Below the pieces are notes generated by a model. That model worked only from the letters and a program-made list of their open reading frames with translations. It made no database searches and was not told where the DNA came from. Of a stretch of DNA of 64,000 nucleotides, positions 1 through 18,560 are shown in pieces. This DNA comes from Hyphomicrobiales bacterium (lineage in GTDB: Bacteria > Pseudomonadota > Alphaproteobacteria > Rhizobiales > Beijerinckiaceae). Each line of letters begins with the position of its first letter. The stretch's first letter is position 1. The position numbers and the translations under genes are program-made. The DNA lies in the NCBI GenBank assembly GCA_930633525.1, contig CAKNFP010000001.1, positions 4,091,501 through 4,155,500 of the forward strand, written 5' to 3'.

Positions 1-64
1 AACCGGCATGGGCGCCGGGCCATCGCCCCGAACGCATGTCAATGCGACGACGACAGCCAAACGC

Positions 65-988
65 TCAGGCGCCGGCGAAGCGCCAGACCGGAATGCCGAG
101 CTTTTTCGCCTTGTCGGCCAGATTGTCCTGGATGCCGGTGCCGGGGAAGACGATGACCCCGACCGGGAGGATGTCCAGCATAGCATCGTTGCGCCGGAAG
201 GGCGCGGCCCGGCCATGCCGGCTCCAGTCGGGGGCGAAGCCGATCTGCGGCACCTTGCGCTGATCCGCCCAGCAGGCGGCGATCCTCTCGGCGCCCTTCG
301 GCGACTTGCCATGCAGCAGCACCATGTCGGGGTATTTGGCGTGGACGCGGTCGAGGCTGTCCCAGATCAGCCGATGGTCGTTGCAGTCGAGCCCACCGGT
401 GAAAGCGATCTTCGGGCCGGGAGGCAGAAGCACCTCCCGTTCGGCGCGCTTCCTCGCCATCAGGAAATCGCGGCTGTCGATCAGCGCCGAGGTCAGGGTC
501 CGTCGGTTGGCCATCGAGCCGGTGCGCGGGCGCCAGGGCGTGCCGGCATGGCGCTCGTAATGAGCCGCGGCCTCGTCGCGCATGGTCTCGAAGGCGTCGC
601 GCCGGTCGATCAGGCCCTGTCCTCCGGCGAGCAGGCGTTCGAGCGCGACCGATTGCACCTCGCTGCCATCCTGCTCGGCGCCGAGCTGACGCTGGGCCTG
701 CTCGTTGCGGTCGAGTTCGCGCTCGATCCGGGCGGCGGCGCGATGGAAGAGCTGCACGGCCGACCAGAGCAGGTCATCGAGCTCCGGTTCGAGGCTGGTC
801 TCGCCGAGCGTGCCGGCAAGAGCATCGAAGATTTCGGAGACGGCCCCGGCGAGATCCGCTTCGTCCGGCAGCGGACGAGGATCGGGTTGATCGCCCTGCG
901 GGCGATAGCCGTAGAGTTGCAGGCCGGTCAGGACATGTGCGGTCGGGGATGAGCTGTCAGGTTCATGGTGGTCCGGCTCGCTGGTCAT
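65..988 (-). CDS. DUF2493 (SLOG-like) domain protein
   Basis: This 307-residue cytoplasmic protein belongs to the leftward block of the mobile element. Its last ~115 residues, from KIAFTGG to PVWRF, match the DUF2493 fold: a Rossmann-like SLOG domain with an FTGG nucleotide-binding-type turn near residue 195 and a later VFPGTG loop. The N-terminal ~190 residues are helical, charged and of unknown function. DUF2493 proteins are common on plasmids and ICEs of alphaproteobacteria; binding of a nucleotide-derived ligand is only an inference. The ATG at 988 was chosen because a GAGGGA ribosome-binding-like sequence lies about 12 bases upstream and the longer in-frame extension is low-complexity arginine/proline coding. 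It lies downstream of the Toprim gene on the same strand, with a 312-bp gap. Confidence 0.8.
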   Translation of the reverse strand: MTSEPDHHEPDSSSPTAHVLTGLQLYGYRPQGDQPDPRPLPDEADLAGAVSEIFDALAGTLGETSLEPELDDLLWSAVQLFHRAAARIERELDRNEQAQRQLGAEQDGSEVQSVALERLLAGGQGLIDRRDAFETMRDEAAAHYERHAGTPWRPRTGSMANRRTLTSALIDSRDFLMARKRAEREVLLPPGPKIAFTGGLDCNDHRLIWDSLDRVHAKYPDMVLLHGKSPKGAERIAACWADQRKVPQIGFAPDWSRHGRAAPFRRNDAMLDILPVGVIVFPGTGIQDNLADKAKKLGIPVWRFAGA

Positions 989-1300
989 CGGCGTGGTTTC
1001 CCTCGTCGGGCTGGCCGCGCTCTCGCGGCCTTCACGGCGACGGAAAGCCCACGGGCCGGACGGACTGGCAGGCCTCGCCGCGCGAGGGCCTCGATGGCCA
1101 AGGCCGGCGATTTTGTCTCGCGATGGAAAGCGCGGGTCTGCCCGCGCGCCGGAAAATCGTCGGCCGCGGCCATTGCCGGGCCGGCCGGCTTGTGAGCCCG
1201 ATCGCCCTCTCGAAGGCCGGGGCGCGGACTTTTCCGACGTAGAAGCCCGCATGGCCACAGAGCGCGGCGGCCAAACCACCCGCCTCCTTCACTTTCCGGA
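989..1300. other. Intergenic leader of the DUF2493 gene with two inverted repeats
   Basis: No convincing gene is present in this 312-bp gap. Reading leftward, a perfect 7-bp hairpin (1013-1030, loop AGAG in the RNA sense) sits about 25 bases before the DUF2493 start and can be enclosed by an outer GGGCU:AGCCC stem (1046-1050 with 1008-1012). Further upstream a 13-bp arm pair with one mismatch (1102-1114 with 1153-1165) surrounds a perfect 6-bp hairpin (1131-1146). These look like a structured leader and a cruciform-type site; no function is known. Confidence 0.5.
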
Positions 1301-2326
1301 TTATCCTGCCGGGGTCGGGAACCGGCCGAGATCCCCAGGCGCGAGTTGACGGTTCAGCAATGCCCGGAGCGCGGTCGGACCGAGGTGCAGCAAATCTTCG
1401 TTGAAGTCCCTGAGCCGGGGCGAAAGCACGATCGCCTTGATGTCGAAGCTCGCTGCCCGTTCGCTCAGCTTATCACAGGCCGCGCTGCCGGCCGGGTCGC
1501 GGTCGCGTAGTATATAGAGACGCCGCAACGTCGGCGGGAAGAGGATGGCGCCGAGATGCGCGGCCGAGCCAGCTGCCATCATCGGCATGCGCGGCAGGGC
1601 GCAGCGCGCCGAGAGCACCGTCTCGATGCCCTCGCCGGCGGCGAGCACGTCGGTGGCGGCGTCGAAGCGGACCGCATGGCCGAGTAGATCGCCCATCGCC
1701 CGCCGCGGCGTGGCGATCGGTGCCTTGCTGGAACCGTTGGGCGCGAGCCAGGTGCGGTGCACGCCGGCGAGCCGGCCGTCGAGATCAGTGACGGCGGCGA
1801 TAAGCGCCGGCCAGGTCTGGGTCGGCGCACTCCCGTTCGGGCGATAGTAGCAATGCGGATGGAAGCGAAGGCTCGACAAGCCTGAAAGATCGGCGATGCC
1901 ACGCCGGCACAGATAGTTTTGCGCCAGCGTGCCGTGGATTGGCCGTGATATGGCGAAGAGCTTTCGAGCCGCCTCGGGCGTGCCGGGTTGAGCGGTGCGA
2001 TCGGCAGGCTGCTCCGGATGCGGCAGGCTGAGAAAGCGGCGTGCTTCCTCGACGACCTCGCGGAAGTCGACGACACCGCATGCCTCGCGGATCAGGTCGA
2101 GTAAATCGCCATGTTCGCCGGTGGCGGCATCGCACCAGCGGCCGGCGGCGCCTCGGCCGGTCTCTGGCCCTGCTAGCCGGACGAAGGTCGAGCGGCCCGG
2201 CGCGTTGCGGATGTCACCAACCAGCCAATAGCGCCCGCAGCGGCGGCCGTTTGAGAGATAGCGGCGACAGACCGCCTCGGCGCTCTGGCCGAGGCGGCGC
2301 GCCAGATCATGCGGGGATTGCGCCAT
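1301..2326 (-). CDS. Toprim-domain protein (primase-like, plasmid/ICE type)
   Basis: This 341-residue protein has a Toprim catalytic core in its C-terminal half: the glutamate motif GEGIETVLSA (E232) and the DxD motif ILRDRDPAG (D275, D277), the metal-binding residues of primases and topoisomerases. The N-terminal ~120 residues resemble the zinc-finger/primase-associated region of phage and plasmid DnaG-like proteins (DUF7146-type), with Cys20, Cys30 and Cys65 as possible metal ligands. No helicase domain is attached. It probably acts in DNA replication or priming after conjugative transfer, by family analogy. It follows the ParB-like gene, separated by 66 bp that contain a factor-independent terminator. 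Confidence 0.82.
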   Translation of the reverse strand: MAQSPHDLARRLGQSAEAVCRRYLSNGRRCGRYWLVGDIRNAPGRSTFVRLAGPETGRGAAGRWCDAATGEHGDLLDLIREACGVVDFREVVEEARRFLSLPHPEQPADRTAQPGTPEAARKLFAISRPIHGTLAQNYLCRRGIADLSGLSSLRFHPHCYYRPNGSAPTQTWPALIAAVTDLDGRLAGVHRTWLAPNGSSKAPIATPRRAMGDLLGHAVRFDAATDVLAAGEGIETVLSARCALPRMPMMAAGSAAHLGAILFPPTLRRLYILRDRDPAGSAACDKLSERAASFDIKAIVLSPRLRDFNEDLLHLGPTALRALLNRQLAPGDLGRFPTPAG

Positions 2327-2342
2327 GACGGCACCTCGACAA

Positions 2343-2373
2343 GGAAAAGGCCCGCCGTCGCCGGCGGGCCTAT
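2343..2373 (-). terminator. Terminator between ParB-like and Toprim genes
   Basis: In the minus-strand direction a perfect 9-bp GC-rich stem (arms 63-71 and 48-56 of the 2300 block, 6-base loop) is followed directly by TTTT. It lies 20 bases downstream of the ParB-like stop codon and about 20 bases before the Toprim start, so it may end or attenuate transcription between the two genes. Confidence 0.75.
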
Positions 2374-2392
2374 TGTGGAAACTGCGCGACGA

Positions 2393-4420
2393 TCATTCCG
2401 CCGCGATGTGCACCGGAGTGTTCGCAGCGTCCGTATCGCGATCACCGGCGCTGTCCGCGCCAGCAGCGGAACCCGGCGTGCGTAGCGGTTCTGGCAGCCA
2501 ACCGGTCTCGGCCAGCAGGGTTTCGGCCTCTGCCGCCATGTCGCCCTTCTTCAGATGCGCGATCCGCTCGGCGGTGCGCTGATCCTTCGCTTCCGCCACG
2601 GCCTCCAGGATGCGCGCCTTCGTCACCCGGCCGAGGAAGTTGTCCACGGTCGGTCGCCAGCCCGCTGTCGCCATGTCGAGGGCGACGGCGCCGGCAAGAC
2701 GGTCGGCATGGGCGAGCGCCCGTGGCCGGCGGTTCCAGGGTTCGTGCACGGCATTGACCGACAAGCTGACGATATGGGCGAACAGCCCCGCCTGGCTGTT
2801 GCCGTCCCAGCCCTGCAGTGCATCCCAAAGATCGTCTGCATCTTTCGGGAGTGCATTGGCCCAGCTCTCGTGCCGCACGCGGATCGCTTCAGCCGAAGCA
2901 CTGTCGTTCAGCCCCGGCGCCTGAGCACTGAAGGCGACACTCTTCAGGTCGAGTTCGAGGCAGCTGTCCGAGGCGTAGCGGTAGAAAGTCTTGAGGGTCA
3001 GCGCGTGCAGGGCGGCGACGAAGGCAACATCCGGGCGTTCGCCGAGCGCATGGCGCAAGGCGAGTGTACGATGCGAGGTCAGTTCGGTCAGGAGCCGATC
3101 CGAGATCGGCGAAAGGCCTTCGTCCTCTTCCGGGTCCGGGTCCGCCTCCTCGATTTCGACGGCGACGGTAGCGTCGCCGCCGCGTTGAGCGGCGGCAGCC
3201 CGAACGGTGTTCACCTCGATGTCGTCAGCGTCCTGTTCGACCAGCTCCTCGTCCTCCGGACGGACATAACCGCGCTCGACCTGCAGGCGCCCGTCATGGG
3301 CGATGCTGACAAAGGCGCCGGCGCGGGCGTTCTCGGCCGGATCGAAGGCGACCGGCCTGTTTTCGAACGCTTCGAGCGCGGTCTCCAGTTCACCGAGTCG
3401 ATCGTCGACCTCGTCGGGCAACTCGTCTGCAACTGAGTACGCGTCGGAGAGTTTATCGTATTCGGCCTGAAAAGCGTCGCGGTTCGCTTCCTCCTCGGCT
3501 GTGAGTGCGACGGTCTCGCCGCGCAGCCGGCGCAGGCCGAAATTGTGACCATAGGCGAATTCCGGCGCGACCTCGACCCATCTCCAGCCCTCAGCGGCGA
3601 TGGCCTCGGAATCGCCTTTCAACTTCTCGGCGACCATGCGGTCGACGAGCGCGACATCCTGCAGCCAACCGCCGTCGTCGCCCTGAAACAGGTCGCGCAG
3701 GATCGTGCCGCCCGCCGCCTCGTAGGCGTCGATGCCGATGAACTGCGCCCGCTTGTCGGAGGCGCGGACCGCACCTTCTGTCAGCATACGTCGGATGGCA
3801 TAGGGCTGCTTGTCGTGGGAATGCTGGAGCCGCTCGTAGACCTGCTCCTGCCGCTCATGATCGCCCGACACGGCGAAGGCCATAAGCTGATCGAGCGTCA
3901 TGCCGTCCTCGGCATAAATGTCGAGCAGGGCTGGCGAGACGGCGGCGAGCTTCAGCCTCTGCTTCACGACGTTGACCGAGACGAAGAAAGCCGCCGCGAT
4001 CTCTTCCTCGGACTGGCCTTTCTCGCGTAGCGTCAGAAAAGCCCGGAACTGATCGAGCGCGTGCAACGGCGCACGCTGGAGGTTCTCGGCCAGCGAATCC
4101 TCCTCGGCGAGACCACCCTCGCGGACGATACAGGGGATGGGCGCGGTCTTGGCCAGTCGCTTTTGCTTCACCAGGAGTTCGAGCGCCCGGTAACGCCGGC
4201 CACCGGCCGGGATCTCGAACAGGCCGGTTTCGGCACCGGTCTGGTCAGTGACGGCCCGGACGCTGAGACCCTGAAGCAGGCCGCGGCGGGCGATGTCCTC
4301 GGCCAGTTCTTCGACCGAGACGCCGGCCTTGATCTTCCGGACATTCGCCTGGCTCAAAACCAGCCTGTCGAAAGGAATGTCGCGCGAGCGCGACAGGGTG
4401 AGCTTCTTCGCAGCAGCCAT
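2393..4420 (-). CDS. ParB/Srx-type nucleotide-binding domain protein (large ParB-like)
   Basis: This 675-residue protein begins with a ParB N-terminal domain: the segment from IPFDRLVLSQANVRK to about residue 115, including AGGRRYRALELL and the AENLQR motif that in ParB family proteins forms the CTP-binding box. A helix-turn-helix region follows (EEEIAAAFFVSVNVVKQRLKLA). The C-terminal ~450 residues are acidic, partly disordered and unique. It is about twice the usual ParB length, typical of plasmid and ICE homologues in Rhizobiales. It probably binds element DNA for stability or regulation. A ParA-like ATPase lies 5 kb away on the other strand, not adjacent as in standard parAB. Its leader carries a conserved RNA structure shared with the DUF932 gene. 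Confidence 0.85.
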   Translation of the reverse strand: MAAAKKLTLSRSRDIPFDRLVLSQANVRKIKAGVSVEELAEDIARRGLLQGLSVRAVTDQTGAETGLFEIPAGGRRYRALELLVKQKRLAKTAPIPCIVREGGLAEEDSLAENLQRAPLHALDQFRAFLTLREKGQSEEEIAAAFFVSVNVVKQRLKLAAVSPALLDIYAEDGMTLDQLMAFAVSGDHERQEQVYERLQHSHDKQPYAIRRMLTEGAVRASDKRAQFIGIDAYEAAGGTILRDLFQGDDGGWLQDVALVDRMVAEKLKGDSEAIAAEGWRWVEVAPEFAYGHNFGLRRLRGETVALTAEEEANRDAFQAEYDKLSDAYSVADELPDEVDDRLGELETALEAFENRPVAFDPAENARAGAFVSIAHDGRLQVERGYVRPEDEELVEQDADDIEVNTVRAAAAQRGGDATVAVEIEEADPDPEEDEGLSPISDRLLTELTSHRTLALRHALGERPDVAFVAALHALTLKTFYRYASDSCLELDLKSVAFSAQAPGLNDSASAEAIRVRHESWANALPKDADDLWDALQGWDGNSQAGLFAHIVSLSVNAVHEPWNRRPRALAHADRLAGAVALDMATAGWRPTVDNFLGRVTKARILEAVAEAKDQRTAERIAHLKKGDMAAEAETLLAETGWLPEPLRTPGSAAGADSAGDRDTDAANTPVHIAAE

Positions 4421-4436
4421 CGGGATGATACTCCGC

Positions 4437-4477
4437 GACGGGCGGCTGAGAGCCTCTCTCTCTGCCTGAAACCCGTC
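4437..4477 (-). ncRNA. Structured 5' leader element, copy 1 (upstream of ParB-like gene)
   Basis: Read on the minus strand this 41-base segment folds into an outer 6-bp stem (GACGGG with CCCGUC), an asymmetric internal loop (5 bases on the 5' side, one G on the 3' side), and an apical stem of GGC/GCC, an A-A mismatch and GAGAG/CUCUC closing an AGAGG loop. It ends 16 bases before the start codon, directly before the ribosome binding site GCGGAG. A second copy with compensatory changes lies before the DUF932 gene, which supports a functional RNA rather than a chance hairpin. Confidence 0.65.
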
Positions 4478-4573
4478 ACGAAGCGCAGCGCCACCCTCTT
4501 ACTCCGAGGGCAGCGCCGCGAGTCGACGATCAAGAGAAGTGCGAGCGCGGGAAGCCGAGCGCGACGCTCAGGG

Positions 4574-5767
4574 TCAGCGCGCCTGGTCGAGCAGTTTCTT
4601 GGCCCGGCCTTCCAGGTCGAGCCGGGCGTCCTGATGGGTCTTGTCGCGCGCGACAGCCGTGATGCCCTGCACGAAATCGAAAACGCTCTCCGGCGGGCGC
4701 CCCTCATCGGCCAGAACTGTCTCGATGATCTTCGCCGTTTCGGCTTTGGAGAAGCCGCGCTTGCGCAGGAAATCGCTGCGGTCCTCGTCAGATTTCGCCA
4801 CGATCTTCTCCCGCGCCGCCTTGATGCCGTTGACGAAGGGCATGGGCGAAGAGTTTGCGAAACGCGTCAGCGCCGGAGCAGCCTCATGCGCGAAGCGCGA
4901 GGCGGCGTATTTGGAATGGCGGATCGTGATCTCCTCGAAATCCTCGACGCCCCAGAGATTGCGGTTCTGGCAGACGGCGCGCAGGTAGAAGCTCGCCATG
5001 CCGAGCGTCTTGGCGCCGACCTCGGAGTTCCAGCAGTAGAATCCGCGGAAATAGAGATCCGGAGAACCGTCGGGCAAGCGCCCGGCCTCGATCGGGTTCA
5101 TATCGTCGACCAGGAAGACGAAGACGTCCCGGTCCGAAGCGTAGAGCGTCGTCGTGTCCTGGGTGATGTCGACGCTGGGATGGTAGATGCCGGTCGACCA
5201 GTCGAGCACACCCGGCACTTTCCAGCGCGTGTCGCCGGTGCCGTTGCCGGCGATGCGCTGCACGGCCGCGACCAATTCATGGTCGAAGATCCGGCCGTAG
5301 TCCGGCCCGGTGGCGGCGCGCAGCTCGACGCGGCCGTCTGCGATCTCCAGCGTCTTGACCTGCTCGGCGCGATGCGAGGTCAGGCCATATTGCAGATTGA
5401 TCGCGGCGAGCGGTGCCGGGAGCTGACGCAGATAGGAGGCCGGAGCACCGACAAGGCTCGCGAGCTGGCCAAAGCTCCAATGCGTCGGCGCGACCGGCGC
5501 ATTGGCACCCGGCAGCATCAGCGTCAGCCGTTCCGGATCGCTCCGGCTGGCCTCGACCCGGATCGCGGCGCTTTCGACCGTTCGGGTCCGGCTGCGCTCG
5601 GTCCGCTCGCGAACACTCTCATAGAGTTCCGAAAGCGACAGATAGCGCTCATCCGCCGGCCGCGAGAACCATTCCGACGAGACGCGGCCGATCCGCTCGC
5701 CGCGGCCGACATCCACTTTGTAGCCGCCGCTCGTATCGCGACGGGCTTCGAGCACCTGCATGGTCAT
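4574..5767 (-). CDS. DUF932 domain protein (phage/plasmid-like)
   Basis: The 397-residue protein is a full-length DUF932 member, a family found on phages, plasmids and ICEs whose biochemical role is unproven. Recognisable family features are the central region with SHRAEQVKTLEIADGRVEL, FDHELVAAVQRI and RGFYCWNSEVGAKTLG, and a C-terminal helical part. The ATG at 5767 is preceded by GGAGGT at 8 bases. The frame stays open upstream to 6187, but the conserved leader RNA and ribosome binding site argue for this start. It lies 153 bp upstream of the ParB-like gene in the same direction, and both carry the same leader element, so they are probably co-regulated post-transcriptionally. Confidence 0.85.
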   Translation of the reverse strand: MTMQVLEARRDTSGGYKVDVGRGERIGRVSSEWFSRPADERYLSLSELYESVRERTERSRTRTVESAAIRVEASRSDPERLTLMLPGANAPVAPTHWSFGQLASLVGAPASYLRQLPAPLAAINLQYGLTSHRAEQVKTLEIADGRVELRAATGPDYGRIFDHELVAAVQRIAGNGTGDTRWKVPGVLDWSTGIYHPSVDITQDTTTLYASDRDVFVFLVDDMNPIEAGRLPDGSPDLYFRGFYCWNSEVGAKTLGMASFYLRAVCQNRNLWGVEDFEEITIRHSKYAASRFAHEAAPALTRFANSSPMPFVNGIKAAREKIVAKSDEDRSDFLRKRGFSKAETAKIIETVLADEGRPPESVFDFVQGITAVARDKTHQDARLDLEGRAKKLLDQAR

Positions 5768-6611
5768 GGCTTGAACCTCCATGACGGGCGCCGGGAGCCT
5801 CTCTCCCAGCCCTGACCCGTCGCGGACGTCCGTCCGACCTCTCACTTTGTCCGGCTCATGCTGCGCGGCACATTGAGGATGAAAGACGCCATCGGCAATG
5901 CCGACCCTGCTATACTGCTGAAGTCGGTTGATCATGTCCGAGGTCACGCAGGGGCGAAAAGGTATCCCATGACGATAGGCGCGCAACCAATCGCCGATGA
6001 TCAGACGGTTTGGTTTATCCGTTCTGATTGACACAATGTTATCCATTCCGGAAACGGGGCGCCTGGGACCCTTGACGTCGCCGGTGCCTCGGATCATCTT
6101 TGTGAGGTCTGACCGTGCCTTAGGCACCACCAGCGCGAATAGCGGCGTCACCCGACGCCGGCTTCGCGGCGGCGCCGGGAGCCGCATTGCAACCCCGGAC
6201 CAACGGCCACGAAGGCCGTCGCGGGCCAGACCAGCGACCGATAACCAACCGGTCGTGACTGCACTGTGAGTCGGATGTCATCGACATCCGTTTGAGCCCG
6301 GCGGGGCTCCACGGCGGCAGCGGAAACCTCCCTTGGGAGGCCGCTATGCCGCGCGCCCGTCAATCTTCCGCATCGATCATCTCGTCGCCTGTCCCGACCC
6401 GGCCGCCGGTTGCGTATTCGGCTAGCCCTGCGCTCGTCGAGCGCACTGGCCGCGGGCGCCGCCTGTTCGCAGCCAGCGGAGTGCCGCCATAGCGCGCAAA
6501 ATCGCGCTCCTGACGCGTGCGCGAACTCCGTGCCGGCCTTCCCAACATCGTCGTGACGCTGACTTCCGTGATGCGAGCGACATGCCTCCAAATAAACCCA
6601 GAAGGTGAAAC
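5768..6611. promoter_or_regulatory. 844-bp divergent control region of the element
   Basis: This region separates the leftward and rightward gene blocks. It holds the DUF932 leader RNA, a comparatively AT-rich stretch at about 5860-6060 with a TTGACA hexamer at 6028-6033, a 19-bp palindrome (CGGATGTC, 3-base centre, GACATCCG; 6272-6290) of operator type, and a hairpin at 6320-6344 (CCTCCC/GGGAGG with outer GCGG/CCGC). No gene could be supported. Open frames exist on both strands but lack ribosome binding sites or recognisable content. It is the natural place for promoters, an element repressor site, or an origin of transfer/replication. Confidence 0.55.
5783..5821 (-). ncRNA. Structured 5' leader element, copy 2 (upstream of DUF932 gene)
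   Basis: This 39-base segment repeats the architecture of copy 1: outer stem GACGGG/CCCGUC, 5-base 5' bulge with a single G opposite, and an apical 8-bp stem ending in GGGAG/CUCCC around the same AGAGG loop. Relative to copy 1 the apical stem changes an A-U pair to G-C while staying paired. It ends 15 bases before the start codon, next to GGAGG. Confidence 0.65.
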
Positions 6612-7445
6612 ATGAATAACAGGAATGATCTGCTCTCCACGACCAAGATCTCGCCCCGCGAGTCGTCCGCCGAGTCGTTCGAACAGCAGATGGTCGGGAC
6701 GTTCGCCGTTCCCGAGTTGCCTGAAGCCCTGCGCGACAGCTTCTCCGCCTGCGAAATGCAGGTGACGGTCGCCGGCGCGATGGGGCGCGATCTCGCTGAG
6801 AACCATCTCGGCGATATTCTCGCCCCCCAACTCCTCGACCCGGGATCCGCCCTGCGGCGGGTGATGCAGTTCACGCAGCTGACGGTCGATGCCGATGTCT
6901 TGCGCGACAAGCTGAACGCTCTTTCTCCGGAAGCTCTTGCTATTCTGCAGAGCAGGATCGGAGCCATGTTCAAAGAATACAGCCCGGTCGAACTCTTCGC
7001 CAGCGGCTACCTCCCCGCAATCGACATGCTCCGTGTCGCTGGCCTTGTCGCACCGGCGGGCAAGGCCGCATGGGGCCTGTGCAACATCGTTCTGGAGGAC
7101 GAGAACTGGTTCGTTTATCAGATCGCTTTGGGCAGCGATCCAAGAGACTTGCCGGAGTCGCCCAAGACGGCAGATCGGATCGCCGAAGCGCTGGCTTTGG
7201 CCGTACGGCTGGGGATGGAACAGGTCAGCGGCATCATGGATCAGCTGATTTGCGACCTCGCCCATATGCTGGCGCGGTCGACAGGCTGCCGATATCTGCG
7301 CGTTCATCAAAACGGCGGGGGCGCCCGCATCGAAGAGATTCCGGTTCAGGCCCTCCGAGGGGATGCCGCTCGCGGCGAACTGGGCGGGCTGGTGCTCGAA
7401 GGCGTCAACGCGCCGATCACGCCGTTTCCGCCGCGTTGGTCCTGA
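6612..7445 (+). CDS. Hypothetical protein of the mobile element (277 aa)
   Basis: I do not recognise this 277-residue protein. It has no signal peptide or clear membrane segment and is mainly helical, with hydrophobic stretches around residues 135-160 (ELFASGYLPAIDMLRVAGL, GKAAWGLCNIVL). It is acidic in the N-terminal half. AAGGTG lies about 6 bases before the ATG, supporting the start. It is the first gene of the rightward block, after the large control region, and is followed by a perfect 13-bp inverted repeat that probably ends its transcript. Being alone in its unit, it could be a regulator or accessory transfer protein, but nothing in the sequence proves this. Confidence 0.7.
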   Translation: MNNRNDLLSTTKISPRESSAESFEQQMVGTFAVPELPEALRDSFSACEMQVTVAGAMGRDLAENHLGDILAPQLLDPGSALRRVMQFTQLTVDADVLRDKLNALSPEALAILQSRIGAMFKEYSPVELFASGYLPAIDMLRVAGLVAPAGKAAWGLCNIVLEDENWFVYQIALGSDPRDLPESPKTADRIAEALALAVRLGMEQVSGIMDQLICDLAHMLARSTGCRYLRVHQNGGGARIEEIPVQALRGDAARGELGGLVLEGVNAPITPFPPRWS

Positions 7446-7499
7446 GCGATCAAGGCGATGAGCGCCGATGGGAGCGTCGGTTCTTCGACGTTCTGTCTA

Positions 7500-7529
7500 C
7501 TGCAGCGGGGTCGATAGACCCCGCTGCAG
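7500..7529 (+). terminator. Perfect 13-bp inverted repeat with GATA loop
   Basis: Two perfectly complementary 13-base arms (7500-7512 and 7517-7529, beginning CTGCAGCGGGGTC) flank a 4-base loop. There is no U tract. The position, 55 bases after the stop of the preceding gene and before the next promoter region, suggests a transcript end or stability hairpin. Confidence 0.55.
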
Positions 7530-7598
7530 GCGCATTCGGCCGCGACACCCGTGCGCTTTGCGGCGATGGCCGGATCGAGCGCTCCCACCGGGAAAATC

Positions 7599-7612
7599 GA
7601 GTTAACCCCAAA
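7599..7612 (+). promoter_or_regulatory. Repeated element motif GAGTTAAYCCCAAA, copy 1
   Basis: GAGTTAACCCCAAA lies 46 bases before the SprT-like gene start. The same 14-mer (C or T at position 8) precedes the ParA-like gene and the relaxase gene, so it is probably a shared operator or promoter element. Confidence 0.6.
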
Positions 7613-7644
7613 GTTTTCCCTACCGACTGCACCATGATTTCGGC

Positions 7645-8418
7645 ATGGCGATCACCCCAGACGATATCGGCACGAACATCGTGCCCACCGATCAACCGGC
7701 GCGACCCGGCAATGGCGACCGGAGGATGATCTCGGAGCTTACATCGTACGATGCAAAGTCCGGATCCGCCTCGCGCCATGATCCTACGGTTTTGGCTTAT
7801 GGGCATCTGGTCGCGGCGTATGGATTTTTCAACGAGCATCTCTTCGCGGGGGCGCTGCCGGGCTGCCTGATCACGATGCAGCGCAAGAAAGGTGCCCGCG
7901 GCTTCTTTCATGGGGATCGCTTCGGCAGCCGTGATCGTACCGAAACCGCCGACGAGATCGCGCTCAACCCGGCAACATTCGCGACGCGGGACGACAAGGG
8001 CATCCTGTCGACGCTCGTCCATGAGATGGCGCATCTCTGGCAGCATCATCACGGCACGCCATCCGGATCGGGCTATCACAATCGCGAATGGGCGGCGATG
8101 ATGGTCGAACTCGGCTTGATCCCCTCGCATACCGGCAAGCCCGGCGGTCGGCAGACTGGCAGGCGAGTGACGCACTTCATCCAGCCCGGCGGGCCTTTCG
8201 ATCGCGCCTGCGAGGCGTTGCTGCGCTCCGGCGTCCTCGTCGCGTATGTCCAGCGGGGCGATGACGAGGCGACCGAGACGGTCCGCGCCAAGAAGTTGGC
8301 GAGCAAGACCCGCTACACCTGCTCCGGCTGCGGTCTCAACGCCTGGGCCAAGCCCGGTATCCGATTGGTCTGCCAAGACTGCCGCCGGCCGCTTCTTCCT
8401 TCGTTCTCCCACGCCTGA
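7645..8418 (+). CDS. SprT-like zinc metalloprotease domain protein
   Basis: The 257-residue protein contains a SprT-like domain: the zinc-binding active-site motif HEMAH at residues 126-130, followed by a downstream histidine-rich helix (WQHHHG) and YHNREW, and a C-terminal zinc ribbon (CSGC near residue 227 and CQDC near 245). SprT/Spartan family proteins cleave proteins cross-linked to DNA in eukaryotes; bacterial homologues are poorly studied. Its presence next to a relaxase, which becomes covalently attached to DNA, makes a DNA-protein adduct role attractive but unproven. No good ribosome binding site precedes the ATG at 7645; an alternative ATG at 7726 has GGAGG directly abutting it. It overlaps nothing and is followed 8 bases later by the next gene. 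Confidence 0.85.
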   Translation: MAITPDDIGTNIVPTDQPARPGNGDRRMISELTSYDAKSGSASRHDPTVLAYGHLVAAYGFFNEHLFAGALPGCLITMQRKKGARGFFHGDRFGSRDRTETADEIALNPATFATRDDKGILSTLVHEMAHLWQHHHGTPSGSGYHNREWAAMMVELGLIPSHTGKPGGRQTGRRVTHFIQPGGPFDRACEALLRSGVLVAYVQRGDDEATETVRAKKLASKTRYTCSGCGLNAWAKPGIRLVCQDCRRPLLPSFSHA

Positions 8419-8426
8419 GGTCCATC

Positions 8427-9638
8427 ATGCCCGATCGTGACAAGCCCAAAGACGCCCCAGATCACATGGAAGTCCTGCTACGGATTCAGCTCTGGCTCCT
8501 CGGGTCTCGCGGAGAGCCCTTCGCGATCTTCGATCCAGCACTGATCGATGAAGCGGGCGAAAGCGAGGTGCGCGATCTTATCCGGCTGATGCCGACCGAA
8601 GAATTCGTCTTACTGGCGGTACCGGCGGAGTTGCTGCCGACGCTGTTACCGCTCCTGGCTCCGGACCATCGCACGATGTTTCGGGTCGGGCGTCCGCTGG
8701 TGATCGCGCCAATCGCGATTGAAGAACGCGAGGCGAATCCTCGCCATCGTCCCGTCGATACCGGGCCTGTCCAGGCTGCCAAGACCGCGCTCGCCGTACA
8801 GACTTTCCGGCTTTTGACGGCTCAGGAGGCTACTGAATTCGCGCGGAACAACCAGGCCCGCCTGCTGACCGACGCGGAAGTCATTAAACGTGCGAGGGAG
8901 GCGATCGGCGAAGCCGTCTGGCGCGATGGCTCCGACCCGGACGGGGCCGGCAAGGCCAAGCGCTTGAAGGGGCTGATCGACAGAGGGCGCCGGCCGGCGG
9001 CGAATTTCTTCGGCGTCGAGAATCCTCGCGACGTGGGTCAAGCCGAGGTAGACCGCATCGCCGAAAGGCTCGGGACGAGCTCGCCCGGCACCGTGCAGCG
9101 CCGGGAGATGACCGACGCACTCGCACGCGATCATCGCGAGCAGGTAGGCGGACTGGCCGATCACGAAGTCCGCGCTCGGGCGCATGAGGGAGCGATGGGG
9201 CGCTGGTCGGCTTCAGCGCGGAAAGGCGCGCCGATCGAATTCGCGGACGGGCTCGACGTGACAAATGGCATCGTCACGCGGCAGTCGGCCCCCACTCTAA
9301 TGCGGGTCGCACTCGGCGGCGAACTGAATCCCGCCGAAGTGCATCGCAATCTCGAGACGATGCGCGAGGTCTTCCAGGTCGGCGTGCTGATCGGGCGGTT
9401 GAGCCGGAGGCAGGCGATCGAGTTGACGCTCGGACAGGCCAAGATCCTGATTCAGTCGCTGGATGTTTTCGTCAGCCAGCTTCACGGTTCCGGCCAGCCG
9501 GAGACTGAGGCTGACGGCTGTGCGTGGTATCTGGCGGATGCGGCGTTGCGCTGCCACGATCTGGGCTTCTGGAACACCACGGTCGCGCGCATCCTCGAGA
9601 CCGGCAAGCCCGAAACGGTCATGCCGCGGGTCCCGTGA
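8427..9638 (+). CDS. Hypothetical protein of the mobile element (403 aa)
   Basis: This 403-residue soluble protein is not one I can assign to a family. The N-terminal ~100 residues are hydrophobic/alternating (ELLPTLLPLLAPDHR), the middle (residues 130-270) is charged and helical, and the C-terminal ~120 residues contain regularly spaced leucines (FQVGVLIGRLSRRQAIELTLGQAKILIQSLDVFVSQL) suggesting a helical bundle. It starts 8 bases after the SprT-like gene with GAGG before the ATG, so the two are very likely co-translated and may act together. Its stop codon overlaps the second copy of the repeated 14-base motif, which then starts the ParA transcription unit. Confidence 0.72.
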   Translation: MPDRDKPKDAPDHMEVLLRIQLWLLGSRGEPFAIFDPALIDEAGESEVRDLIRLMPTEEFVLLAVPAELLPTLLPLLAPDHRTMFRVGRPLVIAPIAIEEREANPRHRPVDTGPVQAAKTALAVQTFRLLTAQEATEFARNNQARLLTDAEVIKRAREAIGEAVWRDGSDPDGAGKAKRLKGLIDRGRRPAANFFGVENPRDVGQAEVDRIAERLGTSSPGTVQRREMTDALARDHREQVGGLADHEVRARAHEGAMGRWSASARKGAPIEFADGLDVTNGIVTRQSAPTLMRVALGGELNPAEVHRNLETMREVFQVGVLIGRLSRRQAIELTLGQAKILIQSLDVFVSQLHGSGQPETEADGCAWYLADAALRCHDLGFWNTTVARILETGKPETVMPRVP

Positions 9639-9650
9639 GTTAATCCCAAA
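9637..9650 (+). promoter_or_regulatory. Repeated element motif GAGTTAAYCCCAAA, copy 2
   Basis: GAGTTAATCCCAAA overlaps the stop codon of the 403-aa gene and lies 76 bases before the ParA-like gene. Between motif and gene there is a CCTGTC/GACAGG inverted repeat (about 9688-9709) whose 3' arm touches the AGGAAGGA ribosome binding site. Confidence 0.6.
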
Positions 9651-9712
9651 GCGGGCCGCTTGCCCGGTGCCAAAATCCTCCCTGTCGAAGTCATCTGACA
9701 GGAAGGACCCGC

Positions 9713-10552
9713 ATGCCTCGTTTGAAGCGCAATCTGATCAGCGGCACGGCGTTGCCGCTCATCATCGTGGCGAATGAGAAAGGCGGTCAGGGCAAGTCGC
9801 TCGTCTCGCTCGCGATCGCCGATCACGCCTATCTGCACGAAGCCCCGCTCGGCATCGCGCAGATCGATACTCAGCACCGGCTGGCCTATGCCCTCGGGCG
9901 CAGCGTCCTGACGATCGCGCCGGCCGCGAAAGACGCGCGGCGCGATCCCGCCGCCGAGGCGCGGTCGTTCACGCCGCTCTATACCATGATCGAAAAGGCG
10001 GCCGGACGCGGCGCCAGCGTGCTGATCGACACCGGCGCCAACCAGGCGTCGCGCTTCGCGCACTGGGCCGGACTGGTCGACCTGGCCGAAGACCTGACGC
10101 TCTGGAAGGTCGAGACCACGGTGATCGTTCCTTACGTGGCCGAGGCTGAAGCCATGCGGCAAGCGGCCCAGACGGCGAACTTTCTGCTGGACCGGATCCC
10201 GCAGGCCCGGCTCGTGCTCGTCGAGAACGAGCGGGACGGATTGTTCACCCACCTCCATCCGGCATCGGATGCCGCCAGCGTGCATCGTACGATGATCGCG
10301 CCCCTGAAAGCGCAGTCGACGACCTTGCGGATGCCGGCGATCGAGGCCGGCTCCTGGCGGCCCTTCGAAGCGTCGCGCTGCCGGTTCGTCCAGGTCGCTC
10401 AGATGCCGGTGGAGAAGGTCATGGCCCTGACCGGTCTGCCCCGCCCCGAAGCCAAGATCGCGCGCGGCGACGTCGCCGGCTGGACCGCGACCGCCTTCGA
10501 GGAACTCGATGGCGTGCTGCCCTGGAGCAAGCGCGGAGGCGGGCATGGTTGA
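9713..10552 (+). CDS. ParA/TraL-like ATPase
   Basis: The 279-residue protein has the deviant Walker A motif of ParA/MinD ATPases, NEKGGQGKSLV at residues 21-31 with the signature lysine K23 and catalytic K28, then an IDT segment (residues ~50) and a further VLIDTGAN motif near residue 103. Such ATPases act in DNA partition or, as TraL-type proteins, in conjugative transfer; the location directly upstream of membrane proteins and the coupling protein favours a transfer role. The start is supported by AGGAAGGA about 7 bases upstream. Its stop overlaps the next gene by 8 bases (ATG at 10545), indicating translational coupling. Confidence 0.82.
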   Translation: MPRLKRNLISGTALPLIIVANEKGGQGKSLVSLAIADHAYLHEAPLGIAQIDTQHRLAYALGRSVLTIAPAAKDARRDPAAEARSFTPLYTMIEKAAGRGASVLIDTGANQASRFAHWAGLVDLAEDLTLWKVETTVIVPYVAEAEAMRQAAQTANFLLDRIPQARLVLVENERDGLFTHLHPASDAASVHRTMIAPLKAQSTTLRMPAIEAGSWRPFEASRCRFVQVAQMPVEKVMALTGLPRPEAKIARGDVAGWTATAFEELDGVLPWSKRGGGHG

Positions 10553-10928
10553 GCGGCGCGGAGCCTTCGAGCGGGCAGCCAGGCTCGCGTCGACCGAAAG
10601 ACGCGACGGGGAGCAGGCCTTGGTGCAGCGCCTCGCCGATGATTTCCGGCGGGATTCAGGGGCGTTCGATCCGCGCCGACTGTCCTATCTCAGCCCGCTG
10701 GGCTGGGTCGACCTCCTGAAGACGCTGGAGATTTCTCCGGCCGGGGGCAAAAGGCCCTTCCTGAGCGGCTTGGCCGATACCCCGCAGCCGGATCAGTGGC
10801 TGGCTGCCGGATGGGCAAACCTGCGCCGGCCGGAACGGTCGGCCTGGCTCGCCGGTGTCGCATCCGGCTCCGCCTTTGGAATTCTGGTCCTGCTGTTCGC
10901 CTTCCTTGTGAGCTTCGCGTTCGGCTGA
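10545..10928 (+). CDS. Small membrane protein upstream of the coupling protein (127 aa)
   Basis: This 127-residue protein has a charged, arginine-rich N-terminal ~90 residues and one C-terminal membrane segment (SAFGILVLLFAFLVSFAFG). The ATG overlaps the ParA-like gene and has GGAGGCG upstream. The last ~35 residues (from RRPERSAWLAG) are repeated almost unchanged at the end of the next protein, because the DNA from about 10811 was tandemly duplicated. No family is recognised; by position (between a TraL-like ATPase and a coupling protein) it may be a conjugation-associated membrane protein. Confidence 0.68.
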   Translation: MVERRGAFERAARLASTERRDGEQALVQRLADDFRRDSGAFDPRRLSYLSPLGWVDLLKTLEISPAGGKRPFLSGLADTPQPDQWLAAGWANLRRPERSAWLAGVASGSAFGILVLLFAFLVSFAFG

Positions 10929-11950
10929 CCGCCGTCCCGCCATCATGGAGACATCGCGTGCCAACGGATAATCCTTTCCTCGAAGTCCGCTCGTACCGTC
11001 CGGCCGTTCTCGGTGCGGTCGCGACGGCCGCAACCGTTCTCATCCTCGGACTGCTTCTGTTGTTCGAGATCCGCCCGCCGCATGTTGTCGGATCGTTTGG
11101 ACCTGTTGATCTCGATCTGACCAGTCTCGCGTGGATCGGCGCGGTGATGCTCACCAGCGACGGTGGCCTGCCTGTCGTGCCGCAATGGATCGGGCTCGAG
11201 TGCCAGCCTGGCGTGAGTTCCCGCCTGATCGGCGTGATCGCGCAGTCGCATTCCGCACGGTTTCAGCTGGGCATACTCGCGGTAGCTGTTCTCTCCGCCG
11301 CTACGATCGCCTTCGTGAGCATCGTTTCGGCTACGCCGAAGCGGGAGCAAACGAAGACGCTCAAGAGCAATCGACCGCTATGGGCGATTCTGCGTCGGCC
11401 GGAGCGGTCGGCCTGGCTCGCCGGTGTCGCGTCCGGCTCCGCCTTTGGAATTCTGGTCCTGCTGTTCGCTTTGCTGCTGACCCTGACATTGGACTGACAC
11501 CCGTCCCGCCATCATGGAGACATTGCGATGCCCACGGATAATCCTTTCCTCGAAATCCGCTCGTATACCCCGGCCGTTCTCGGTGCGGTCGCGACGGCCG
11601 CAATCGTGCTCATTCTTGGATTGTTGTTGCTGTTCGAAATCCGCCCGCCGCGTGTTGTCGCATCGTTCGGGCCCGCCGAACTCGACCTGACCAGTCTCGC
11701 CTGGGTAGGCACCGTGGTGCTCACCAACGACGGCTGCCTGCCTGTGGTTTCGCATTGGATCGGGCTCGAGTGCCAGCCTGGCGTGAGTTCCCGCCTGATA
11801 GGCGTGATCGGGCAGTCGCACTCGGCGAAGTTTCAGCTGAGCATGCTCGCGGCAGCCGTCCTCTTAGCCGCGGCGATCACCTTCGTGAGCATCGTTTCGG
11901 CCACGCCGAAGCGGGAACAAGTGAAGACGCTAAAGGGTAAGCGACCCATT
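10811..11950 (+). repeat. Tandem duplication, two diverged units of about 570 bp
   Basis: Bases ~10811-11379 and ~11380-11950 are two head-to-tail copies offset by 569-570 bp, visibly about 85% alike. Each copy runs from the TM-tail coding end of the 127-aa gene, through its stop and a shared CCATCATGGAGACAT ribosome-binding segment, into the first ~140 codons of a coupling-protein N terminus. The second copy continues as the complete coupling protein; the first is fused at its end to another copy of the TM tail. Confidence 0.85.
10958..11497 (+). CDS. Chimeric coupling-protein anchor fragment (179 aa)
   Basis: This 179-residue protein begins with GTG after ATGGAGAC, exactly like the downstream coupling protein. 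Residues 1-~143 are homologous to the first ~143 residues of that coupling protein (two membrane segments and a periplasmic loop with GLECQPGVSSRLIG), with roughly 24 substitutions. The last ~35 residues, from RRPERSAWLAG, are homologous to the TM tail of the 127-aa protein upstream. It therefore lacks the ATPase domain and has three predicted membrane segments. Open reading frames and amino-acid-level conservation over a visibly diverged duplication suggest it is expressed, perhaps interacting with or interfering with the coupling protein; that role is inference. Confidence 0.7.
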   Translation: MPTDNPFLEVRSYRPAVLGAVATAATVLILGLLLLFEIRPPHVVGSFGPVDLDLTSLAWIGAVMLTSDGGLPVVPQWIGLECQPGVSSRLIGVIAQSHSARFQLGILAVAVLSAATIAFVSIVSATPKREQTKTLKSNRPLWAILRRPERSAWLAGVASGSAFGILVLLFALLLTLTLD

Positions 11951-13294
11951 TTCGATGCCGATGCGCGGGCGTCGCTGCGTACGGCGATTGCCAAGACCGG
12001 CCGGGCGTTGAAGCGCGGGCTCTGGCTCGTGCCGCATGTGCAGCTGACCTCCTCCGGGGAGGGCTACAATATGCTCGCACTCGGGACGCAGGGCTCGGGC
12101 AAATCGTCGACGCTGCGCGCGCTGATCGAACAGCTCATCGCCCGAGGCGATCAGGTCGTAATCCACGATTTCAAGGGCGATCTGACGGCGGGGCTCCCAT
12201 CCGACGATTTCATCCTGGTCGCTCCGCACGATGCGCGCTCATGGGTCTACGATATCGCGGCCGACATTCGAAACGCCCAACATGCGCGCGAATTCGCCGT
12301 CCACGCCGTCCCGACCTCGGCGAACGAAGCCATGTGGGCCAACGGCTCGCGTGCGGTTTGGGCCGATCTCGTGATGGCGCTGCGGGCCGACACAGACGGT
12401 CGTTGGGGTTGGATCGAGCTCAGGGATAGGTTGCTCTCGCCTGGCGCGACCATCAAGGCAGTGCTCGACCGGCACGGCGCGGCGAGCGCAAGCCGGCTCA
12501 TTTTCGGCAGCGACGACCCGGAGGAGAATCGCACGACCATGTCGGTTCTGATCACGATGTGGATCGCTGCGCTGACCGTCGTGCATCCGCTGGCGGAGGC
12601 CTGGGCCGAAGCGCAAGACGGACGCCGGTTCAGCCTGCGGAACTGGATCGATGGCGACGGCACGTTGCCACGCGTTCTCGTCCTTCAGAAATCCAGCGAG
12701 TATCCGGAACTAACGCAGCAGCTCAACGCATTCCTGATCGACCGCCTGGTCGGGCTCGCGCTGCGTTCGGGACGAGAGCGCAACCCGGCGACGAAACTGG
12801 CGCTGTGCCTCGACGAACTGCCCGAATGCGGTCGTCTCCATCGGCTTCCAAACCTCTTGAATATCGGTCGGGAATTCGGCGTCGTGACGGTCGCGGCGGT
12901 TCAGGACATCGCGCACCTGATCGAGCTCTACGGCGAGAATCTGACTCGCATTCTCCTCGCCCGGTTTCGGATCAAGCTCGTCCATCAGCTCGATGCCGGC
13001 GATACCGCGGAGCGCGTCGCCGGATGGCTCAAGCAACGGACGATCGAGTTCGATGGTCCCGAGCGCTACGACCCCGTTGCCAAGCGGAACGTCCGCGACA
13101 CCGTTCGTGAAACTTCTCCCGTTCTGGCTGAGGATCGTCTTGAGACCGAACTCGGCGTCCGGATGGAGAAAGGACAGCCCATTGTCCGGGCGATGATCCT
13201 GGGCTTGGGCAACCCCGCGATCCTCGATATTCCCGCCACCGGATGGCCCGATCGCCGCCTCGGCCATGAGCCGGCTCCCTGGCTCGATCCGTAG
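11528..13294 (+). CDS. Type IV coupling protein (TrwB/TraD-like DNA-pumping ATPase)
   Basis: The 588-residue protein has two N-terminal membrane segments (about residues 15-38 and 110-130) and a cytoplasmic P-loop ATPase domain: Walker A LGTQGSGKSSTL at residues 185-196, VIHDFKGD just after, and Walker B LALCLDELPECG near residue 430. This is the architecture of T4CPs that hand relaxase-bound DNA to a type IV secretion channel at the inner membrane. The ATG has ATGGAGAC upstream. The N-terminal 143 residues are duplicated in the preceding gene. It is upstream of the relaxase and of a 23-codon ORF. No mating-channel genes are seen in the window. Confidence 0.88.
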   Translation: MPTDNPFLEIRSYTPAVLGAVATAAIVLILGLLLLFEIRPPRVVASFGPAELDLTSLAWVGTVVLTNDGCLPVVSHWIGLECQPGVSSRLIGVIGQSHSAKFQLSMLAAAVLLAAAITFVSIVSATPKREQVKTLKGKRPIFDADARASLRTAIAKTGRALKRGLWLVPHVQLTSSGEGYNMLALGTQGSGKSSTLRALIEQLIARGDQVVIHDFKGDLTAGLPSDDFILVAPHDARSWVYDIAADIRNAQHAREFAVHAVPTSANEAMWANGSRAVWADLVMALRADTDGRWGWIELRDRLLSPGATIKAVLDRHGAASASRLIFGSDDPEENRTTMSVLITMWIAALTVVHPLAEAWAEAQDGRRFSLRNWIDGDGTLPRVLVLQKSSEYPELTQQLNAFLIDRLVGLALRSGRERNPATKLALCLDELPECGRLHRLPNLLNIGREFGVVTVAAVQDIAHLIELYGENLTRILLARFRIKLVHQLDAGDTAERVAGWLKQRTIEFDGPERYDPVAKRNVRDTVRETSPVLAEDRLETELGVRMEKGQPIVRAMILGLGNPAILDIPATGWPDRRLGHEPAPWLDP

Positions 13295-13331
13295 TCTCGC
13301 ATTCACGCAGTTCGCGTTCGGGAGATGGACG

Positions 13332-13403
13332 ATGTCGGATCGCCTCCTGTCGGAGAGCGATCCGATCGTCTTTAAGGCAGTCAAGCGGCGCTATGCGAGT
13401 TAA
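13332..13403 (+). CDS. Small ORF of 23 codons after the coupling protein
   Basis: An ATG at 13332 with GGGAG about 8 bases upstream opens a 23-residue frame ending in KAVKRRYAS with its TAA inside the third copy of the repeated motif. The peptide is basic at its C terminus. It could be a genuine small protein or a translated leader linking the coupling protein and relaxase genes. No homologue is recognised. Confidence 0.35.
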   Translation: MSDRLLSESDPIVFKAVKRRYAS

Positions 13404-13410
13404 TCCCAAA
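13397..13410 (+). promoter_or_regulatory. Repeated element motif GAGTTAAYCCCAAA, copy 3
   Basis: GAGTTAATCCCAAA lies 68 bases before the relaxase start and overlaps the stop of the 23-codon ORF, the same arrangement as copy 2 where the motif overlaps the previous stop codon. Confidence 0.6.
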
Positions 13411-13440
13411 CTTTGAAGGCGCCCTGCCGGCTAATTCGAA

Positions 13441-13461
13441 GGCCTCCTGTCATCGGAGGCC
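13441..13461 (+). promoter_or_regulatory. Hairpin covering the relaxase ribosome binding site
   Basis: GGCCTCC (13441-13447) pairs perfectly with GGAGGCC (13455-13461) across a 7-base loop. The 3' arm contains the GGAGG ribosome binding site, 5 bases before the TTG start codon of the relaxase gene, so folding should limit relaxase translation. Confidence 0.6.
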
Positions 13462-13464
13462 ATC

Positions 13465-16101: not shown

Positions 16102-16285
16102 GAGCGAGACGGGGCCGATCGTCGTCGATGACTGGCCTGAACCGGTCCCGGTTTCGCGGGCCGAGCTCGACGTGATCGAGACCTGGCTCGGTCGCCTTCT
16201 CGACGAAATCCTGACCCCGCCGGGTAGGCAGGACCGTCGAGAGCCTTCCCCGAAACCAGCCCCGACCCCACCAGAAGGAATTTGA
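16091..16285 (+). CDS. Small hypothetical protein overlapping the relaxase end (64 aa)
   Basis: An ATG at 16091 overlaps the relaxase stop (16099-16101) in another frame. The product is acidic and proline-rich (PIVVDDWPEPVPVSRAELDVIETWLGRLLDEIL) with one amphipathic helix in the middle. No family is recognised. Overlap with the relaxase suggests translational coupling and an accessory role in transfer. An upstream in-frame ATG at 16037 would add 18 residues, but sits deeper in the relaxase gene. Confidence 0.5.
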   Translation: MGSESETGPIVVDDWPEPVPVSRAELDVIETWLGRLLDEILTPPGRQDRREPSPKPAPTPPEGI

Positions 16286-16286
16286 C

Positions 16287-16604
16287 ATGAATGAAGAGCA
16301 GCATCTGCAGGCGCTCGTGGAGATGGCCACCGCCAACCAGGACCTTATCCTCCGGAGCGAGAACCACACCGACGCCCTTCGCGAGATCATCGGCGCGAGC
16401 GACATCGTCTGGGGCATCTGGCAGGACGAGAGATCCCCCACCGGCGTCGACAGCATGATCATCAAGGGCCTGGGTCGGCTAATGTTGATCCAGCAGGCCG
16501 CGCGTGCCGTTGCGGTCAAGATGACGGCGGTGCCGTGCAGGGAACCGGCCGAGGCCGAAGCCATGCGCCAGATCCTCGGCGACGGACGCACTGCGCGTGG
16601 ATAG
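16287..16604 (+). CDS. Small hypothetical protein of the element (105 aa)
   Basis: This 105-residue protein starts at ATG 16287, one base after the preceding stop, with AGAAGG as ribosome binding site inside the end of the previous gene. It is helical, with a central segment DSMIIKGLGRLMLIQQAARAVAVKM and an acidic N terminus. I do not recognise a family. It is the last gene before the recombinase and probably belongs to the relaxase transcription unit. Confidence 0.6.
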   Translation: MNEEQHLQALVEMATANQDLILRSENHTDALREIIGASDIVWGIWQDERSPTGVDSMIIKGLGRLMLIQQAARAVAVKMTAVPCREPAEAEAMRQILGDGRTARG

Positions 16605-16830
16605 GCCGTTCTCGCGCCGGCTCTTGCGCTAGCCATCGTCTACAGGCTCGATAGCCTCGGCCGCCAGCATGATGCGGGGGCTGAGAGATAGCGAGCGCCG
16701 GTTTGCGCCGGTCGCCCCTGGCGCGAAATCAATCCGAGCGACGATATCGCTCGCTGCGTTGCTGTAAATATTTGATCCAAATGAAGAATTATGCTCTAAT
16801 GTAGGGGCTGGTCTGCGCAGGAAAGCAAAG

Positions 16831-18525: not shown

Positions 18526-18544
18526 ACCGCTAGACGAAGGGAGC
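18469..18544 (-). tRNA. tRNA-Glu (anticodon CTC), attachment site of the element
   Basis: The minus strand folds as a complete 76-base tRNA: acceptor GCTCCCT/AGGGAGC, anticodon stem TCGCC/GGCGA with loop CTCTCAC (anticodon CTC), T arm GGGGTTCGAGTCCCC, discriminator G and an encoded CCA. The 3' end faces the mobile element, and the recombinase ORF runs into it from the left, the classic position for integration in a tRNA 3' end. The gene is intact, so integration restored it. The partner attachment site should repeat part of this 3' end beyond the left edge of the window. Confidence 0.93.
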
Positions 18545-18560
18545 GTTCAGTGAACGTCCC

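Follow-up and report, generated by a model that had tools for sequence, protein, structure and literature searches.

Results

Genes and hairpins at the locus

The window, that is the whole stretch of 64,000 nucleotides analysed here, carries on its minus strand a series of mobile-element genes that, in order of transcription, encode a DUF932-like protein (4574..5767, 397 aa, the start ATG at 5767 being our choice by its spacing to GGAGG), a ParB-like protein (2393..4420, 675 aa), a toprim protein (2326-1301) and an SLOG/YspA-like protein (1279-65). The ParB-like protein matches Pfam ParB_N (E 2.2e-6), and the DUF932-like protein matches DUF932 at E 0.0025, below the Pfam cut-off, its orthologues carrying the name DUF932 in public records; the two genes are unrelated, as had been predicted. 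The other side of the element holds TraD-like and MobF-type relaxase genes. Further features of the window are a tandem duplication at 10811-11828 (plus strand), which starts shortly before the TraD-like gene and runs into it, its copies being spaced ~570 nt apart and 85-86% identical; a long open reading frame at 16831-18525 (plus strand), which from its sequence we take to be recombinase-like and which ends over a tRNA-Glu gene (18469-18544, minus strand), this region (16831-18544) being a likely boundary of the element; an array of 9-nt-periodic, CGATCCTGG-like repeats at 28790-29146, perhaps a coding repeat; and a 584-codon open frame at 4061-5815 (plus strand), antisense to the DUF932 and ParB genes and probably a GC-rich shadow ORF.

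Before the ribosome-binding sites of the first two genes lie two hairpins of the same architecture, 39 and 41 nt long, in agreement with the original prediction. The core hairpin of the DUF932-like gene leader (5783..5821, minus strand, 39 nt) consists of the stems P1 (GACGGG/CCCGUC) and P2 (GCUGGGAG/CUCCCGGC) and an AGAGG loop, and that of the ParB-like gene leader (4437..4477, minus strand, 41 nt) of the same P1, a P2 of GGC-A-GAGAG/CUCUC-A-GCC and the same loop. The apical stems are indeed paired in both copies, although the helix is longer than was claimed. Both hairpins end 2 nt short of a GGAG, which is part of the ribosome-binding site AUGGAG (5777..5782, minus strand) of the DUF932 gene and GCGGAG (4431..4436, minus strand) of the ParB gene. 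The 5' flank of the DUF932 leader (5822..5849, minus strand) contains a purine element, AAAGUGAGAGG, and an arm, GUCCGC, which here is only partly paired with the ribosome-binding site; that of the ParB leader (4478..4519, minus strand) contains a predicted upstream hairpin with the loop GGAGUAA, followed by an arm, CUUCGU, that pairs with GCGGAG, GGAG included, in the predicted fold. The folding energy is -27.3 kcal/mol (z -4.5) for the DUF932 copy, with 0 of 200 dinucleotide shuffles folding equally well, and -19.6 kcal/mol (z -2.9) for the ParB copy, with 1 of 200, the stretch folded in the latter case (4436-4476) being offset by one base.

Conserved pairing on the sense strand

A covariance model built from the copies was the check proposed with the original prediction. 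The model (R1), made from 51 of the available copies, namely both window copies and 49 others, found a conserved family in which pairing is preserved. It scores 59.6 bits at 5783-5821 and 52.5 bits at 4437-4477, and the next-best score, 12.9 bits, falls on the opposite strand of the same two elements (window 1-20000, filters off).

In a first alignment of 51 sequences, 96.3% of the cells are paired and 49 cells are changed on both sides, compared with 12.3 in shuffles; the number of pair types was matched by 74 of the 500 shuffles. A second alignment comprises the best 150 of 170 matches (142 distinct) and leans towards the model because it was fitted to it. Here 96.8% of the pair cells are standard pairs, and two-sided changes affect 11 of the 14 pairs and 141 cells (46.2 in shuffles). 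The covariation score is 0.294, against 0.176 in shuffles and at most 0.097 after sliding, with a collapse at a slide of one column, and none of the 500 shuffles reached any of these measures. P1 itself varies in pairs, for example as GACGGA/UCCGUC, GACGAG/CUCGUC and GGCGGA/UCCGCC. Moreover, on a quickly built tree of 68 DUF932 proteins, those with a leader core in the first alignment, pairs 17-20 changed standard type at least 7, 19, 12 and 5 times (18-28: 19; 19-27: 12) and pairs 14 (14-32) and 15 at least 16 and 13 times, as counted with one-sided G-U steps included and no shuffled-label control. Because the pair types changed repeatedly on this tree, the covariation clearly does not go back to one inherited event. 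The 142 distinct copies and the changes on the tree thus give strong support to the predicted compensatory change. On the sense strand G-U cells outnumber A-C cells by 151 to 35 (p 2e-18, the cells not being independent), which indicates that it is the sense strand that folds. The AGAGG loop is kept in 217 of 294 cores.

These data bear on two readings in which DNA rather than RNA is the active molecule. Copies before several genes of one element resemble repressor sites, and the inverted repeat could be a double-stranded DNA operator that merely looks like RNA. This is hardly credible to us, given the G-U excess, the asymmetric bulge, the strand-specific score (59.6 vs 12.9 bits), the two-sided changes that preserve pairing and not sequence, and the fixed place before GGAG. 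The motif could also act as single-stranded DNA on the transferred strand, either as a Frpo-like promoter or as a priming site. The partner genes are of the leading-region kind, such genes are driven from single strands by Frpo promoters (PMC11541004), and folding of the sense strand is compatible with a transferred sense strand. However, a promoter on the transferred strand requires that strand as template, as argued in PMC8708921, and folding of the template predicts more A-C than G-U on the sense strand, the reverse of what is observed; nor would the tie to GGAG at 2 nt be expected of a DNA element. We therefore regard this reading as improbable.

The ribosome-binding site and the 5' flank

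GGAG starts exactly 2 nt past the core in 274 of 294 distinct leaders. Two features that were absent from the original prediction emerged in the flanks: the pairing usually extends outward to take in the ribosome-binding site, and there is a conserved purine element on the upstream side. The strict form of this element, AGAGNNAGAG, occurs at most 28 nt before the core in 206 of the 294 leaders (0.15 in shuffles) and a relaxed form in 243 (4.35 in shuffles). Immediately 5' of P1 lies a stretch of six bases, in most cases UUCCGU or CUUCGU, that stands opposite AUGGAG or GCGGAG. Among 149 of 151 dissimilar leaders, two poor ones having been dropped, the first four of these outer pairs are 88-95% paired, the fifth 70% and the sixth 77%. 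Pairs 2, 3, 5 and 7 between arm and GGAG exceed shuffles at about p 0.02 or better, the rest being expected from conservation; the covariation here is weak, as GGAG is conserved in its own right. Taken together, native arms pair slightly better than swapped ones (-10.6 vs -9.9 kcal/mol, p 2.3e-4), the energy being lower in 95 of 149 leaders, and they are far more stable than shifted controls (about -4).

In predicted folds, at least three of the four GGAG bases are paired in 115 of 146 leaders when the 28-nt 5' flank is present and in 21 of 146 when it is not. Similarly, for 79 usable leaders out of 82 (both window copies and 80 sampled), the mean probability that GGAG is unpaired is 0.18 in the full leader and rises to 0.37 when the 5' part is removed and to 0.38 when the upstream sequence is shuffled. 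The window ParB copy has an almost closed GGAG (0.009), and the window DUF932 copy (0.36) is barely more hidden than the shuffles (0.38). A larger upstream hairpin is supported by modelled energies only in ParB leaders (-21.9 vs -18.7 kcal/mol swapped; lower in 98 of the 127, out of 138, in which its anchor is present).

Candidates for an alternative state were also considered. A hairpin P0, formed by the 5' arm and the preceding sequence, was rejected as a competing ON structure, its native pairs being no stabler than swapped ones (p 0.57 for DUF932, 1.0 for ArdC, 0.84 for the 182-aa family and 0.29 for ParB leaders), and a neat two-state switch is therefore not supported. Leader-peptide attenuation was likewise rejected: 28 of 104 DUF932, 12 of 39 ArdC and 20 of 143 ParB leaders have a small ORF, preceded by a ribosome site, that terminates close to the core, and no position is common to more than 4 of these ORFs.

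The long helix predicted with the extended P1 could also be cut by an endonuclease such as RNase III, in which case loss of the 5' arm would activate or destabilise the messenger, and in predicted folds removal of the arm would open GGAG. To our knowledge, RNase III requires neither an asymmetric bulge nor a sequence-conserved loop, which counts against this scenario, and we give it little credence.

A hairpin just upstream of a ribosome-binding site can also be harmless, which counts against translational control. The leader might be a 5' hairpin that is constitutive and does not switch, shielding the messenger or insulating the start site: it is stable, it has a fixed place before GGAG, and no linked regulator was found. 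Beyond ParB, DUF932 and toprim, clean gene clusters recur in at most 17 of 97 loci. The largest cluster of all, present in 87 of the 97, mixes ORFs of many kinds and strands and was discounted, though it may hide a small gene. ProQ/FinO is found in 2 of 49 genomes, of which 1 is among 25 motif carriers, and is not a general partner. However, simple stability would need neither the conserved AGAGG loop (217 of 294) nor AGAGNNAGAG (206 of 294), and the 5' arm is predicted to hide GGAG instead of exposing it. A constitutive hairpin thus seems to us unlikely.

Genes behind the leader

Four unrelated gene families follow the leader: DUF932, ParB-like, the anti-restriction protein ArdC, and an unnamed family of 182-185 residues. 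Among 230 places, 106 precede a ParB gene, 93 a DUF932 gene, 20 an ArdC gene, 7 a gene of the 182-185-aa family and 4 none of these. These places represent 160 of 163 and 70 of 73 model matches; two were left out as repeats of a place and four as weak, although the weak match L077 does lie before a ParB gene. A further 76 places, taken from 95 rows after 18 repeat rows of the same place and L182:131-171 were left out, comprise 38 before ParB, 19 before ArdC, 14 before DUF932, 2 before the 182-aa family and 3 before none. Classes were assigned by similarity to one reference per class, and their shares depend on the manner in which loci were collected. The ArdC reference has the Pfam ArdcN and zincin-like domains. 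One gene outside the four classes is DUF2958 (L127).

In the second element of the same genome (L089, C1:3276000-3295000), leaders precede an ArdC, a ParB and a 182-aa gene, and by eye a DUF2958 lookalike lies between ArdC and ParB. The element in the window has two copies, none of them before an ArdC gene within it. The unnamed family (L089:6995-7543, minus strand), with relatives in L132, L130, L119, L126, L140 and L125, has no Pfam match over the cut-off and no PDB relative by sequence; it is a candidate establishment gene. A 172-residue protein behind the leader in L228 looks related to it by eye. Structure predictions had a mean pLDDT of 53.5 and 39.1, too low to support a comparison of folds, and a sequence search gave no PDB relative.

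Family size and distribution

The two window hairpins belong to a conserved RNA family of alphaproteobacterial mobile elements. A DUF932 protein scan provided 80 loci from named genomes, which are close relatives by construction, as the best 80 of 567 relatives were taken. The leader core is present at all 80 (79 by pattern and the last, L043, by the model), and 77 of them have a further model match on the same strand downstream, in front of a ParB gene. The distance between the two leaders is 1281-1354 nt in 72 of the 80 loci, which places the ParB leader directly behind the DUF932 gene; in 5 it is longer.

Matches occur in 25 of 150 genomes at the level of the order (E up to 0.001) and in 22 of 337 at the level of the class (E up to 0.01), the one in L172 (E 0.0036) being probably due to chance, with no gene behind it. 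A phylum-wide draw gave 22 matching genomes out of 299 (E up to 0.01), all within the genome's own family, order or class or the genome itself, the share of other classes in the draw not being given. In the class of a Thauera sp. metagenome-assembled genome 2 of 274 match, one of them being that genome. Judged from these counts, the motif is widely but patchily distributed among alphaproteobacteria, and in the class of the Thauera sp. genome it is rare.

Five matches lie in the genome itself: the two of the window and another three in the second element (C1:3.283-3.289 Mb). A third place found by pattern, C1:295987, lies inside ORFs that we take to be ABC-transporter-like, was not recovered by the model and was judged to be chance. 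Nine named plasmid records were picked by hand from the DUF932 list, and six of them match at E 0.003 or better (Bradyrhizobium, Mesorhizobium, Agrobacterium leguminum, Rhizobium leguminosarum, Paracoccus and Sulfitobacter), the other three only weakly. In five of the nine (L223-L226, L229) no recognisable copy lies directly before the DUF932 gene, so the link between leader and DUF932 is not universal in more distant relatives. With regard to a phage origin, one exact pattern, which would miss diverged copies, gave 0 matches in viral_contigs.

Comparison with Rfam and the literature

The original prediction had allowed that the region might map to an existing Rfam family, and no such family was found. 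No leader reached a gathering score of Rfam 15 in the window or in 12 related loci, no family matched at E up to 5 over window 4300-6000, and in three further loci (E up to 2) the only row was from a snoRNA family, on the opposite strand of L127 at 21.2 bits (cut-off 38). The radC RNA motif precedes DNA-processing genes on mobile elements, and membership in it had been raised as a possibility. The leader shares this context, with ArdC, ParB-like and other such genes behind it, and the likeness is one of context only: in none of eight motif-carrying genomes did RF01754 give a match over its gathering score of 40 bits, none of the weak RF01754 places listed in the eight coincides with a motif copy, and the RF01754 model has 149 positions, the new motif 40. 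Among the literature matches listed, no title or abstract start describes the leader; supplements and subscription papers lay outside this scope, and an earlier unnamed mention is possible. The motif-discovery papers PMC8632094 and PMC6429828 name neither DUF932, ArdC nor ParB in their main text.

Discussion

A conserved hairpin folds on the sense strand 2 nt before GGAG, in multiple copies per element and before unrelated genes. Since every copy directly precedes the start of a gene for establishment or maintenance, those carried by one element would together mark a post-transcriptional regulon. We suggest, with somewhat better than even confidence, that they form a family of cis-acting structured RNA leaders serving as a translational switch for the establishment and maintenance genes of alphaproteobacterial conjugative and integrative elements. 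Four observations agree on control of translation in cis: the leader has its place right before GGAG, the sense strand folds, GGAG is predicted to be hidden, and the ParB leader follows directly after the DUF932 gene, an arrangement that fits control of translation better than control by a promoter. The original prediction of a cis-acting translation regulator is strongly supported as regards a cis-acting RNA leader kept by compensatory change, and control of translation is the best inference from the 2-nt spacing and the predicted occlusion. Its label of element-maintenance proteins proved too narrow, the anti-restriction protein ArdC being a main partner.

We propose that the switch works as follows. 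The arm 5' of P1 is predicted to pair across the hairpin with the Shine-Dalgarno sequence, so that the default fold hides GGAG in most leaders, and the hidden GGAG would keep translation low. Opening might be brought about by a factor that recognises AGAGNNAGAG and/or the AGAGG loop, or by removal of the 5' arm. Such a switch would be expected to limit the proteins in an established host and to permit their synthesis when the element has freshly arrived; on this model, the leader probably controls the timing of translation. Well-timed expression of anti-restriction genes is a central step of plasmid and ICE transfer. ArdC of R388 is reported to be required in the recipient and not in the donor (PMC7213743), and timed expression is a reasonable expectation given this recipient-only need and the repeated structured sequence of pLS20 discussed below.

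It would be tempting to go further and see here a new RNA class for zygotic induction at the level of translation, in which an element-wide RNA regulon silences anti-restriction and establishment messengers until entry into a new cell. This idea is tentative, and we consider it doubtful. Release in the new cell could follow because a resident factor is missing there or because transcripts start without the 5' arm. If true, the zygotic-induction leader would be an alphaproteobacterial RNA counterpart of repressor-based and Frpo-based early expression. Independently of this, one small RNA across four gene families gives work on alphaproteobacterial elements, those of rhizobia and sphingomonads among them, a concrete target, and as a marker the leader can point to more establishment genes, the unnamed 182-185-residue family being an example.

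Leader RNAs that hide a Shine-Dalgarno sequence enclose the ribosome-binding site in a helix. The site is likewise paired in the predicted default fold of 115 of 146 leaders here, though not in the window DUF932 copy, and, unlike such leaders in general, one and the same leader is shared by several unrelated genes within an element. The closest parallel is EGeRS1 of the Bacillus pLS20 plasmid family, a conserved structured sequence that recurs immediately ahead of the ribosome-binding sites of establishment genes, ardC included (PMC8708921). As with EGeRS1, the leader adjoins the ribosome-binding site on its upstream side, with GGAG 2 nt away in 274 of 294 leaders, and occurs in several copies per element, one of them before ardC in the second element of this genome. 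EGeRS1 is 400-600 bp long with multiple inverted repeats; it is characterised as lacking a promoter and blocking readthrough, and the pLS20 copy before ardC is described as having no strong promoter (PMC8708921). The leader, in contrast, has a core of ~40 nt and a flank of ~30 nt, with a conserved part of ~75 nt over four gene classes, and it comes from alphaproteobacteria, EGeRS1 from Bacillus. Frpo/ssi sequences have secondary structure and are single-strand promoters that drive leading-region anti-defence genes (PMC11541004). Frpo has its -35 and -10 elements in folded single-stranded DNA, whereas the leader folds on the sense strand, and the pair counts (G-U 151, A-C 35) speak indirectly against a promoter formed by a folded, transferred template strand. 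A leader RNA that controls its gene is of a known kind, and what appear to be new are this family, its spread over unrelated establishment genes within one type of element, and its purine elements.
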